Origin: Phycisphaerae bacterium
Lineage (GTDB): Bacteria > Planctomycetota > Phycisphaerae > JAJVII01
Reading direction: 5' to 3'
Length of the DNA: 64,000 nt
Assembly: GCA_022072085.1 (NCBI GenBank)
Contig: JAJVII010000042.1
Span: 62,001-126,000, forward strand
Under the pieces are notes generated by a model. It worked only from the letters and a program-made list of their open reading frames with translations, did not search any database and was not told the DNA's origin. The first letter of the stretch is position 1. Each line of letters starts with the position of its first letter. Shown here in pieces: positions 21,724-46,820 of the stretch. Both the position numbers and the translations under genes were made by a program.

Positions 21724-23067
21724 ATGGCGATAGCGATCTACAAGCTGAGCGAACCGGCTGGGCTCGCCGGCGCCGAGGCGCTGCTGGGGCGGTTGCGCAT
21801 GGGCACGGCCCTGGTCGCCGGCGGGGGCAAGGTCGGCGCCGGCCGGGAAGACCCCGCACAGTCCGTCGCCCGGATCATCGACGCCGTCCGCGACCGCGGC
21901 GACGCCGCACTCATCGAGCTGACCGAGCGATTCGACAAGGCCAGGCTGTCCGCCGACCGGCTGCGGGTTTCGGCCGCCGAACTGGCCGCCGCCCGCGAGG
22001 CCGTCGATCCGAAGTTCCTCACCGCCGCCCGCATCGCCATCGCGAACATCCGCGAGTACCAGGCCCACATCCTGCCCAAGCCCCCCGCCCCGCTGAAGCG
22101 CGCGGGGATGAGCGAGGGGCTGCGGCTTCGCCCGATGGACCGCATCGGCTGCTACGTGCCCGGCGGGGCGGCGTCGTACCCCTCCAGCGTGATGATGCTG
22201 GCCGTCCCCGCCCAGGTCGCCGGCGTGAAGGAGGTCGTCATCGTCTCCCCGCCGCGCGCCGGCGGCGACATCTCGCCGCTGGTCCTGGCCACCTGCGCCG
22301 AACTGGGCATCGCCGAGGTCTATCGCGTCGGCGGGGCCCAGGCGATCGCCGCGCTGGCCCTGGGCACCAAGGGCATCCCCCGCGTCGACAAGATCGTCGG
22401 ACCGGGCAACCTGTTCGTGCAACTGGCCAAGAAGCAACTCTACGGCCAGGTGGACATCGACAGCTTCGCCGGGCCCAGCGAGGTGCTGATCGTCGCCGAC
22501 GCGTCAGCCGACCCCGCCTGGCTGGCAGCCGACCTGCTGGCGCAGGCCGAGCACAACCCCGGTTGCGGCCTGCTGGTGACAGCCGACGCGAAGGTGGCCG
22601 ACGCGGTGGCGGCTGCGATTGAAAGGCTCCTGCCGCGGTGCAGCCGGCGCGAGGCCATCGAGCAGTCGCTCGCCCAGTGGTCGGCGATCCTCGTGGCCGA
22701 TTCGCTCGACCAGGCCGTCGAGTGGGCCGACCGCGTCGCCCCCGAGCACCTGGAGGTCGCAACCGCCGACGCCGACGCCGTAGCCGACCGCATCCGCCAC
22801 GCCGGCGTGGTCTTCATCGGCCCGCACACGCCGGTGGCGACGGGCGACTATATCGCCGGCAGCAGCCACGTACTGCCGACCGGCGGGACGGCCCGCTACT
22901 TCGCCGGCCTGAGCGTGTACGACTTCCTGCGGCCGCAGGGGGTGGTCCGCTACGACGCGGCCGGCCTGCGTGCGGCAGCCGACGACATCGCCGCGCTGGC
23001 CGAGGCCGAGGGCCTGGACGCCCACTCCCTGAGCGTGCGGATACGATTCGAGCAGGAAAGGAAGTGA
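21724..23067 (+). CDS. hisD: Histidinol dehydrogenase
   Basis: The 447-residue zinc enzyme carries out the last two steps of histidine synthesis, histidinol to histidine, with NAD+. Typical segments are YVPGGAASYPSSVMM, GGAQAIAALA, KIVGPGN, IDSFAGPSEVLI, the zinc/catalytic stretch LAQAEHNPGC, and APEHLEV. First gene of a plus-strand set with an M3 peptidase, hisC and hisB. The gap to the peptidase is filled by a CACGAAG-type hairpin repeat. Confidence 0.96.
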   Translation: MAIAIYKLSEPAGLAGAEALLGRLRMGTALVAGGGKVGAGREDPAQSVARIIDAVRDRGDAALIELTERFDKARLSADRLRVSAAELAAAREAVDPKFLTAARIAIANIREYQAHILPKPPAPLKRAGMSEGLRLRPMDRIGCYVPGGAASYPSSVMMLAVPAQVAGVKEVVIVSPPRAGGDISPLVLATCAELGIAEVYRVGGAQAIAALALGTKGIPRVDKIVGPGNLFVQLAKKQLYGQVDIDSFAGPSEVLIVADASADPAWLAADLLAQAEHNPGCGLLVTADAKVADAVAAAIERLLPRCSRREAIEQSLAQWSAILVADSLDQAVEWADRVAPEHLEVATADADAVADRIRHAGVVFIGPHTPVATGDYIAGSSHVLPTGGTARYFAGLSVYDFLRPQGVVRYDAAGLRAAADDIAALAEAEGLDAHSLSVRIRFEQERK

Positions 23068-23178
23068 CCACGAAGGGCACGAAGGACACCAAGTGAATGA
23101 AGAAGGGGTCTGATCCCAGTTTCCTTTTCCTTCCCAATCCCCCTTCGTGACCTTGGTGACCTTTGTGTTTCCTCTTCC
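23068..23178. repeat. CACGAAG-type inverted repeat, copy 1
   Basis: The left arm ACCACGAAGGGCACGAAGGAC pairs with a right arm rich in CTTCGTGACCTTGGTGACC, around a CT-rich loop. It lies between hisD and the M3 peptidase gene inside the his block, so it would be transcribed and could fold in the mRNA. Confidence 0.8.
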
Positions 23179-38677: not shown

Positions 38678-38740
38678 GTGCGACGACTGGCGCGCTCCCT
38701 TACGGTCGCGGCTATTGACTCCTGCAAGAGGAATCTTCAT

Positions 38741-38866
38741 TCACCACAGAGGACACCGAGATCACAGAGGGGGGTCCGAAACGTCAAGAAATGACCGAAA
38801 TCCAGAATCTTTCAATACGTCTGACTCTGTGCCCTCTGTGTTCTCTGTGGTGAAGATTTCTTTTAC
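38741..38866. repeat. CACAGAG-type inverted repeat
   Basis: CACCACAGAGGACACCGAG and CTCTGTGTTCTCTGTGGTG form a long imperfect hairpin with a less structured interior. It fills the gap between the convergent GH42-like and membrane-protein genes and shares the stem-loop design of the CACGAAG and ATTCG types. Confidence 0.8.
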
Positions 38867-40973: not shown

Positions 40974-41315
40974 TCACTCGGCCGCCTTGGCTTTCGACTT
41001 GCCTTTGGGCTTGCTGTCGGTCTTGGTCTCGCTCTTGGCCGGCGAGTTGTCCTTGGCCGGCGAACTGTCCTTGGCCGACGCGTCCGACGCCGCCGGGGCC
41101 TTGTCCTTGCCGGCTGCCTGTTTGTAGCCGTCGCTGCGGTAGTCGGTGATGTAGAACCCCGAGCCCTTGAAGATGAGCCCGCCGCCGGCGCTGATCAGCC
41201 GCTTCACCTTCAGCTTCCCGCACCTGGGGCACTTGCGGACGGGGTTGGCCTTGATCGACTGAAACAGCTCGAACTCATGCCCGCAGGCGTCGCACTTGTA
41301 CTCGTAGGTCGGCAT
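40974..41315 (-). CDS. FmdB-type zinc-ribbon regulatory protein
   Basis: The 113-residue protein starts [20 protein letters not shown] and has a CxxC...CPRCG zinc ribbon, the FmdB family pattern. A low-complexity Lys/Ser/Pro tail of about 45 residues follows. FmdB-type proteins occur widely, and their role is unclear. In planctomycete-like genomes they are frequent near chaperone genes, as here upstream in order of grpE, dnaJ and groEL on the same strand. The start at the [11 protein letters not shown] (41315) is fixed by family alignment; the ORF extension to 41369 crosses a CACGAAG repeat. Confidence 0.85.
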
Positions 41316-41330
41316 AACCGCACTCCACTG

Positions 41331-41510
41331 ATCAACACGAAGGGCCACGAAGGCAAAGCCAAGGGCCACGAAGGAATTCTAGGGCTCAAGATTCAGACGA
41401 TCATCCGCTTCCATCCACGGATCAACACGAAGGGCCACGAAAGAAGAACCAAGGGCCACGAAGGAATTCAATGGTTCACGACTCAGACGATCATTCGTTT
41501 CCATTCCAGG
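41331..41510. repeat. Tandem pair of 90-bp CACGAAG-type units ending in GxxExxY-gene 3' codons
   Basis: Positions 41331-41420 and 41421-41510 align end to end without gaps, with 76 of 90 bases identical by hand count. Each unit starts ATCAACACGAAGGGCCACGA. On the minus strand each ends with the final codons of the nuclease gene: the right copy is the living gene's WKRMIV-stop, and the left copy keeps WKRMIV-stop (stop at 41393-41395) but has no gene body. Confidence 0.9.
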
Positions 41511-41869
41511 CGGGCTGGGGATGCGAAGTTGATCAACAGGCCGACGCGGATTCCCGTTGCCCGCAGGTAGTTCAACAACTGCGCCTCATGAGCCTTGCAC
41601 AGGGCCTCGGCGGCCTTCAACTCCAGAATGATCTTGCTCTCGCACACGAAGTCGGCAACGAATCTCTTCTCAAGAAAGAAGTCCTTGTACCGAATCGGCA
41701 GGCCCTTCTCCGCCTCGAACGCGACCCCCGCCCGTGTCAGTTCGTAGGCCAACGCCTCCGCGTACACACTCTCCAGAAATCCGGCCCCCAACGTCTTGTG
41801 GACCTTGATGGCCGCCCCAATGATCCGGTAGACCTCATCCCGGTATAGCAACTCACTCTTCTCTTCCAT
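41483..41869 (-). CDS. GxxExxY protein (PD-(D/E)XK nuclease-like)
   Basis: The 128-residue protein has the family signature HKTLGAGFLESVYAEAL and the catalytic-type segments FVADFVCESKIILELKA (D...ELK), followed by LLNYLRATGIRVGLLINF. Members belong to the PD-(D/E)XK superfamily; no substrate is established. The gene is a lone ORF whose 5' flank (41878-41925) and 3' flank (41331-41482) are the two arms of a CACGAAG-type inverted repeat. It thus occupies the loop of an element that has a short loop elsewhere. Confidence 0.92.
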   Translation of the reverse strand: MEEKSELLYRDEVYRIIGAAIKVHKTLGAGFLESVYAEALAYELTRAGVAFEAEKGLPIRYKDFFLEKRFVADFVCESKIILELKAAEALCKAHEAQLLNYLRATGIRVGLLINFASPARLEWKRMIV

Positions 41870-41877
41870 CTCACTCC

Positions 41878-41925
41878 CCCTTTCGTGGCCCTTCTCCCCC
41901 TTCGTGCCCCTTCGTGTTAATCCGT
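41878..41925. repeat. Right arm of the CACGAAG-type repeat around the GxxExxY gene
   Basis: CCCCTTTCGTGGCCCTTCTCC and CCCCTTCGTGTTAAT are reverse complements of the left-arm words ATCAACACGAAGGGCCACGA. The arms are about 390 bases apart, separated by the gene. Confidence 0.8.
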
Positions 41926-42495
41926 CTCTTCGCCTTCCGGCGCGACGGCCACGACCACTCGGCTGGCCCGCAGGGGTCGGCCGTCCATCAGGTAGCCCCG
42001 GGCCACCTCCTGCGTCACGGTCATCGGGGGCACGTCGCCGGCCGGCTCGCGCATCAGGGCCTCGTGAATCTCCGGGTCGAACGGCCGGCCGACCGCTTCG
42101 ATCGGCGTCACGCCGTGCCGGGACAGCAGACCCAGCAGGTGCTCGTGGGTGATGCGGACGCCGGCGATGATGGCCTCCGCCGGCTGGGCCAGCCGACCGG
42201 CCTCCAGGGCTCGCTCCAGGTCGTCCACCACGGTCAGCACCTCGCGCAGCACATCCCGGCGGGCCCGGTCACGGGCGTCGGCTGTCTCGCGGGCGGTCCG
42301 CTTCTGGTAGTTCTGGTAGTCGGCGGTCGTGCGCAGCAGCCGGTCGTTCAGCCTGGCCACCTCGGCCTGGAGCTGGGCGATGCGGGCATCAGCAGTCGGC
42401 GGCGGAGGCGGGGCAGCCGATTGGCCGCTCGCGTTCTGATCGCTGACGGGAATCTCGATCTTCTCATCATCCGGGTTGTGGTTGTCTTTGCTCAC
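41917..42495 (-). CDS. grpE: Nucleotide exchange factor GrpE
   Basis: The 192-residue co-chaperone releases ADP from DnaK. A disordered acidic/Pro N-terminus is followed by the long coiled coil (ARIAQLQAEVARLNDRLLRTTADYQNYQKR), then the four-helix and beta-wing domain (RVITHEHLL-type region, GVTPIEAVGRPFDPEIHEAL, GYLMDGRPLRASRVVVA). Start: GTG at 42495 with GAGG six bases upstream. The ORF's further GTG at 42534 lies inside a CACGAAG repeat and is unlikely. No dnaK gene is present in the window. Confidence 0.93.
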   Translation of the reverse strand: MSKDNHNPDDEKIEIPVSDQNASGQSAAPPPPPTADARIAQLQAEVARLNDRLLRTTADYQNYQKRTARETADARDRARRDVLREVLTVVDDLERALEAGRLAQPAEAIIAGVRITHEHLLGLLSRHGVTPIEAVGRPFDPEIHEALMREPAGDVPPMTVTQEVARGYLMDGRPLRASRVVVAVAPEGEETD

Positions 42496-42526
42496 CGTTG
42501 GCCTCGCCTGGAACTGCCGGAAGAAG

Positions 42527-42602
42527 TCTCCCACGAAGAGCCACGAAGGCGTCTTCTGATAATGAACTCCTGGCTTTCCTCTTCGTGGTCCTTCGTGGGA
42601 GA
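42527..42602. repeat. CACGAAG-type inverted repeat, compact copy
   Basis: TCTCCCACGAAGAGCCACGAAG and CTTCGTGGTCCTTCGTGGGA form a clean stem of about 20 bp with a short interior loop between grpE and dnaJ. It is the tightest copy in the window and shows the basic hairpin unit. Confidence 0.85.
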
Positions 42603-42609
42603 TTTTGAA

Positions 42610-46703: not shown

Positions 46704-46820
46704 TCAACACGAAGCCTCACGAAGGACCGATCAAGGGCCACGAAGGAGATTCCTGATCTTCAATCATCTCCCGCTTCGTGTTCCTTCGTGCTCTCTTATT
46801 CGTGGCCCTTCGTGTTGGTC
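46704..46820. repeat. CACGAAG-type inverted repeat, groES leader copy
   Basis: CAACACGAAGCCTCACGAAGG on the left pairs with CGTGGCCCTTCGTGTTGG and CTTCGTGTTCCTTCGTG on the right. It is directly upstream of groES and downstream of the second groEL. Confidence 0.8.

Follow-up and report, generated by a model that had tools for sequence, protein, structure and literature searches.

In REPIN-RAYT systems, a short gene lies between inverted repeats, many hairpins of the same sequence occur without a gene, and a single genome holds several repeat-enzyme pairs (PMC3116915, PMC3733652). The enzyme of these systems is a Y1/HUH tyrosine transposase, and the repeat is a palindrome tagged with GTAG or CGTC. 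The locus described here is similar in that the repeats flanking its enzyme gene also occur as gene-less hairpins, but the enzyme is a PD-(D/E)XK nuclease and the repeats are arrays of 7-letter words with the terminus TTMACC. MITEs and their parent insertion sequences likewise have inverted ends, gene-less copies and internally deleted ones, whereas the unit studied here contains no DDE transposase and showed no fixed target duplication. A link between a miniature element and a PD-(D/E)XK nuclease has been proposed for the Thiomargarita hupL MITE family, which its authors tied to PD-(D/E)XK_2 (YhgA-like) genes; that nuclease belongs to a different family (PF12784), the repeats are 10-bp direct and 19-bp inverted repeats, and word arrays are not among the features described in the accessible part of that account (PMC4853749). 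Finally, just over half of the 23S rRNA intervening-sequence genes scored here (15 of 28 loci) also lie between inverted tandem-word arms, but these genes encode an unrelated four-helix-bundle protein and use different words.

We analysed a window (the whole stretch of DNA under study, 64,000 nt in length) on contig C9 of a 5.49 Mb genome. The original prediction, made from the sequence, placed a GxxExxY nuclease gene in the loop of a CACGAAG inverted repeat, and both parts of this claim were upheld, the gene by profile matches and the arms by complementary pairs (Table 1). The protein matched PF13366, the sole family to pass its own cut-off, over the full model length (E 5e-42, 143 bits, cut-off 22), and matched the GxxExxY model TIGR04256 equally completely (E 1e-43, 148 bits, cut-off 35). 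The inverted-arm score across the gene was 24.5, compared with a 99th percentile of 14 for random places of the same geometry in the window. The window contains 36 copies of the word CACGAAG where 9.7 would be expected, a count that none of 100 shuffles reached. Gene-less hairpins built on this word, also part of the original prediction, were found at three further places in the window.

Table 1. Positions of the nuclease gene, its arms and neighbours, and related features in the window
Feature	Position	Strand	Basis or remark
End of 23S_rRNA_IVP-type gene	1-285 (G000:C9:61950-62267)		
Gene-less CACGAAG hairpin	about 23066-23172		Word and hairpin search
Gene-less CACAGAG hairpin, TTCACCACAGAG...	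38740-38854		Word of a second nuclease element in the genome, L010
FmdB-like zinc-ribbon gene, left neighbour	40974-41315	-	Flank
First 90-bp unit: arm and last nuclease codons (remnant)	41324-41413		87% identical to second unit; WKRMIV-stop
Outer left arm, ACTGATCAACACGAAGGGCCACGAAGG	41327-41353	+	89% complementary to 41899-41925 (27 nt)
Second 90-bp unit: arm and true nuclease 3' end	41414-41503		Same repeat family; WKRMIV-stop
Inner left arm, second copy: words CACGAAG, CACGAAA, CACGAAG	41417-41465	+	Inverted-pair search
Arm pair	41417-41441 / 41901-41925		25 nt, 92% complementary
Arm pair	41429-41443 / 41880-41894		15 nt, 100% complementary
GxxExxY / PDDEXK_3 nuclease gene, 128 aa	41483-41869	-	Loop of inverted arms; ORF, profile matches and AlphaFold2 model
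Right arm, minus strand reading ACGGATTAACACGAAGGGGCACGAAGG...GAAGGGCCACGAAAG	41880-41925	-	Holds grpE stop codon
grpE, right neighbour	41917-42499	-	Flank; stop codon 41917-41919 within right arm
Gene-less CACGAAG hairpin between grpE and dnaJ	42524-42605		Inverted pair; missing from relatives
Gene-less CACGAAG hairpin	about 46704-46820		Word and hairpin search

The best reading of the locus, in our view, is a REPIN-RAYT-like selfish unit with a nuclease of the Cas4/lambda-exonuclease fold in place of the transposase. We put at roughly two in three the probability that arm, nuclease and arm form one selfish mobile unit, in which the nuclease recognizes the words of its own arms and gene-less hairpins are moved in trans. 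Our search of the literature, with subscription papers and preprints outside its reach, found no description of an element composed of a GxxExxY gene and such arms; GxxExxY received only passing mentions, and PDDEXK_3, TIGR04256 and the CACAGAG word string none. The combination is apparently an undescribed kind of small mobile DNA, a novelty that we regard as provisional.

The association between gene and arms extends well beyond the window. All six GxxExxY genes of the genome lie between inverted arms by reading of their flanks, with the arm words CACGAAG, CACAGAG, CACAGATG, CACGGATT (two loci with differing arms) and CGCGAATG. For larger sets, we took as score the best inverted match found between the two 300-nt flanks of the gene and applied a threshold of 15. 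Across 95 loci of the phylum Planctomycetota, the best-scoring members of the family and hence a choice that may favour intact elements, the median score was 21.5 and 88% reached the threshold, compared with 7.4% when the flanks of different loci were paired at random and 3.4% when the scored regions were shifted by 600 nt. A scan of named genomes, run with alignment A2 as the earlier alignment A1 was too diverse, gave 76 loci from Proteobacteria, Cyanobacteria, Verrucomicrobia, Chloroflexi, Acidobacteria, Bacteroidetes, archaea and some Planctomycetota, of which 76% had arms (mispaired, 17%; shifted, 0%). The mispaired rate exceeds zero because the arms of different loci draw on one word family. 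These counts bear out the enrichment of GxxExxY genes in repeat loops at which the original prediction had pointed, and the pairing of gene and matching inverted word arrays is widespread in bacteria and a few archaea.

Tandem CRCRRAK words were present in the flanks of GxxExxY genes at 75/96 loci in one set and at 73/80 in the cross-phylum set; for the latter, the count fell to 4 when shifted. As a specificity control, the same tandem word was sought near other loci and was found at 2/30 for Y1 transposase genes and 2/30 for 23S_rRNA_IVP (PF05635) genes. GxxExxY was present in 139 of 294 genomes. A search of phages for GxxExxY gave no match; eight plasmid records carry the gene, and viral contigs yielded three loci, including L257 with arms, with clear CACAAAG-type arms in one of the three.

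The original prediction also described a tandem duplication of 90 bp, each unit closing with the last codons of the nuclease. Both units are indeed there, identical at 76/90 positions in the register first proposed and at 87% in that of Table 1, and both read W-K-R-M-I-V-stop on the minus strand. The pair may have arisen as a simple local duplication in tandem that took in arm and gene tail, for example by slippage, or it may be a later, nested element that landed next to an older one. Of the evidence for an element it is the weakest, and the main case is independent of it. Local slippage could account for this pair, but chance or slippage alone is hardly credible as an explanation of the locus: the frequency of arms around GxxExxY genes in both sets, against low controls, refutes it for the arms.

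The arms mostly follow one grammar. An arm starts with TTMACC, followed by two to four CRCNRAK words that are mostly 8-9 bp apart. Across the 97 elements whose arms align without gaps, the two arms were 94% identical at word positions and 57% in linkers, a contrast that stems partly from the word-anchored alignment. Because the words agree so much better than the linkers, it is the words, rather than base pairing as such, that appear to be conserved. The variable letters of the word agreed at 0.74-0.97 within one element and at 0.45-0.68 between elements.

Moreover, the word follows the protein. For 88 loci, the Mantel correlation between protein identity and word, taken between loci of different families, was 0.44 for the word and 0.72 for the final letter alone (p 0.0002), and was equal within families among proteins less than 60% identical. 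Taking the nearest protein from another family as a guide gave the correct last letter for 81/88 loci, where shuffling gave 43 on average and 58 at most, and the exact word for 28/88, where shuffling gave 7 on average and 17 at most. The three last-letter classes require 4 changes on a maximum-likelihood protein tree, compared with a shuffled mean of 28. The window nuclease is the only G-ending case in a T/A clade, and its CACGAAG stands next to elements of the same clade with CACGAAA and CACGAAT. Part of this co-variation could reflect the descent of arms and gene together as one linked unit; functionless arms are not expected to retain their letters among proteins less than 50% identical. 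The original prediction of a small cargo-carrying element is supported as to the element, given the loop enrichment and the empty sites described below, but not as to the cargo: because words differ from one nuclease type to another and follow the protein tree, the nuclease is better seen as the cognate partner of the arms.

Comparison of insertion sites provided evidence of a different kind. The original prediction had raised presence and absence at the same site, and at the window site the insertion is missing in 15 of 16 relatives of the class: in these 15, gene order is kept and the FmdB-like gene and grpE are 17-133 nt apart, compared with approximately 600 nt in the window genome. The sixteenth relative has different content at this site. 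The search for close relatives of this genome yielded a single further member of its family, which was too diverged for footprints. In genus g63, a junction between two genes that read as metal-efflux-like from their sequence is empty in one genome (G314), holds an element with CGCAGAG words in four species and, in six species, holds an intact or decayed element with CACAGATT words and a different nuclease. DNA homology between some copies from different families stops at the arms, approximately 45-60 nt beyond either end of the protein domain, in otherwise unlike contexts (L036/L050, L064/L093 and L242/L255).

These observations bear on the possibility that the nuclease controls its own expression through the arms, which would serve as operators or terminators, the gene-less hairpins being unrelated or moved by a RAYT-type transposase. 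The arms do lie near the gene ends, the hairpins are intergenic, and Y1 transposases were present in 25 of 40 genomes sampled. However, the Y1 loci of the phylum have REP-like arms of different sequence, with GxxExxY-type words at only the two of 30 noted above; a RAYT as mover of the hairpins is unsupported on the same count. The relatives have empty sites, and the homology of distant copies stops at the arms. We consider self-control by operator or terminator arms decidedly unlikely.

A nuclease that cuts the insert-free allele, so that recombination copies the element in and the arms are by-products, would be homing-endonuclease-like. The g63 junction occupied by two different elements in different species would suit such behaviour, but elements of one kind occupy unrelated sites, and the arms are kept as words that track the protein; we judge this explanation very unlikely. 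A homing endonuclease element in the strict sense, inserted at a single allelic site within a conserved gene, was rejected, as related elements lie at unrelated sites. Assignment to the 23S rRNA intervening sequences was also rejected: the window element lies between an FmdB-like gene and grpE, and its protein is not PF05635.

Several element copies are vertically inherited within a genus. Internally deleted copies that retain both ends exist in genus g63, and may represent decay in place. No target-site duplication of 2 to 13 nt was convincingly enriched outside the arms of 128 elements, where old insertions may hide duplications, and no excision footprints were found at empty sites in the species-level genomes compared; transposition itself is for this reason unobserved. 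Two further placements should be noted. A CACAGAG-word GxxExxY element lies between dnaJ and groEL in a relative from another family (L137/L032, G034:C2:1358008-1358352), in the same chaperone cluster as the window site. In genus g63, an ACAGGAT-word GxxExxY element lies in a CRISPR locus, between its apparent cas4 and cas1 genes (L074, L051). In a related case, a published pipeline reported a GxxExxY domain in the place of an expected cas4 neighbour (PMC8934634).

The gene-less hairpins were surveyed across genomes. In the window genome, the hairpin pattern of the window word gave 14 matches per strand at nine separate places, and the reversed pattern gave none. The CCACRGAG hairpin pattern yields many single hits that represent chance, and because its simple presence is noisy, we gave most weight to genomes with at least three such hairpins: the gene was present in 10 of these 11 genomes, compared with 139/294 overall (p 0.003). 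The hairpin word agrees with that of a resident element in genomes G174, G115, G193 and G237. In G115, the gene-less hairpins are dispersed, with several copies 87-93% identical, and one of their sites is unoccupied in sister species. These hairpins (L260-L266 and copies) share loop sequence and some extend approximately 80 nt past one arm; the dispersed unit of G115 may be larger than the hairpin. G004 and G178 have a resident GxxExxY gene, but its arms do not match the hairpin word, and G290 has eight CCACRGAG hairpins and no GxxExxY gene was found in it. The hairpins of G290 may have outlived the gene, or the gene may be missing from an incomplete assembly. G290, G178 and G004 do not directly fit a selfish unit.

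In the AlphaFold2 model (pLDDT 94), the nuclease consists of a bare PD-(D/E)XK core. Residues D73, E83 and K85 are conserved across 61 sequences, with K invariant and D and E at least 90% conserved. We found no solved structure related by sequence to GxxExxY; in a fold search, the nearest solved structures were Cas4 SSO0001 (E 3e-4) and the lambda exonuclease-type LHK-Exo (E 9e-4), from which GxxExxY differs in consisting only of a bare core of 115 residues.

Both of these nearest folds are end-processing nucleases, which leads to a further alternative, a domesticated enzyme that trims or resolves hairpins or cruciforms for the host or for repeat upkeep, with little current movement. The vertical inheritance within a genus agrees with this, and long co-evolution has been discussed for REPIN-RAYT (PMC3116915). 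Against domestication, 155 of the 294 genomes lack any copy of the gene, copies decay, one site holds different elements in different species, and a genome can carry several differing paralogues. We regard domestication as unlikely.

Under the selfish-unit model, which we prefer, GxxExxY would act as a minimal PD-(D/E)XK nuclease that binds the tandem words of its own arms, with the TTMACC-ending arms delimiting the unit. The recognition form would be the word arrays in a hairpin or cruciform, and the nuclease may cut at or near the arm bases, probably when the arms fold out into a hairpin in single-stranded DNA at the replication fork. Strand joining is beyond a single PD-(D/E)XK domain alone; host replication or repair would finish the insertion and leave no target duplication of fixed length. 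Hairpins that share the word but lack the gene would be non-autonomous derivatives, mobilized in trans.

Small genes of two other kinds also lie within repeats. Genes of the 23S_rRNA_IVP four-helix-bundle family (PF05635; L335-L364) lie between inverted word arrays, with 15 of 28 loci reaching the arm-score threshold (1.3% mispaired, 0% shifted) and with GTAGGTTC, GTTACAAG, CTAGAGG, CAAAGCTC and others as arm words. Small GIY-YIG genes of genus g63 (L390-L413) lie inside inverted GTCATTGCGAGG, GTCATTCCCGC or GTCATCCTGAG repeats, with 9 of 19 loci at or above the threshold and 8% when mispaired; they are possibly a third family with repeats of its own. One such GIY-YIG unit, L394 at G313:C1, for example, interrupts a GxxExxY element. 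We tentatively suggest, at somewhat less than even odds, that GxxExxY, PF05635 and small GIY-YIG proteins, each paired with its own word arrays, represent a class of selfish elements carried on hairpins, whose words the resident protein reads in a code-like manner, and that this class seeded a large share of the short palindromic repeats in environmental bacterial genomes.

The selfish-unit reading would give a widespread protein family a function-bearing context, and would provide a source for the short hairpin repeats scattered through environmental genomes. With several nuclease-word pairs in a single genome, the elements would also constitute a natural library for a 115-residue nuclease that reads a 7-letter word. 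Finally, an analogue of REPIN-RAYT built from an unrelated enzyme would bear on how often symbiont-like repeats arise.
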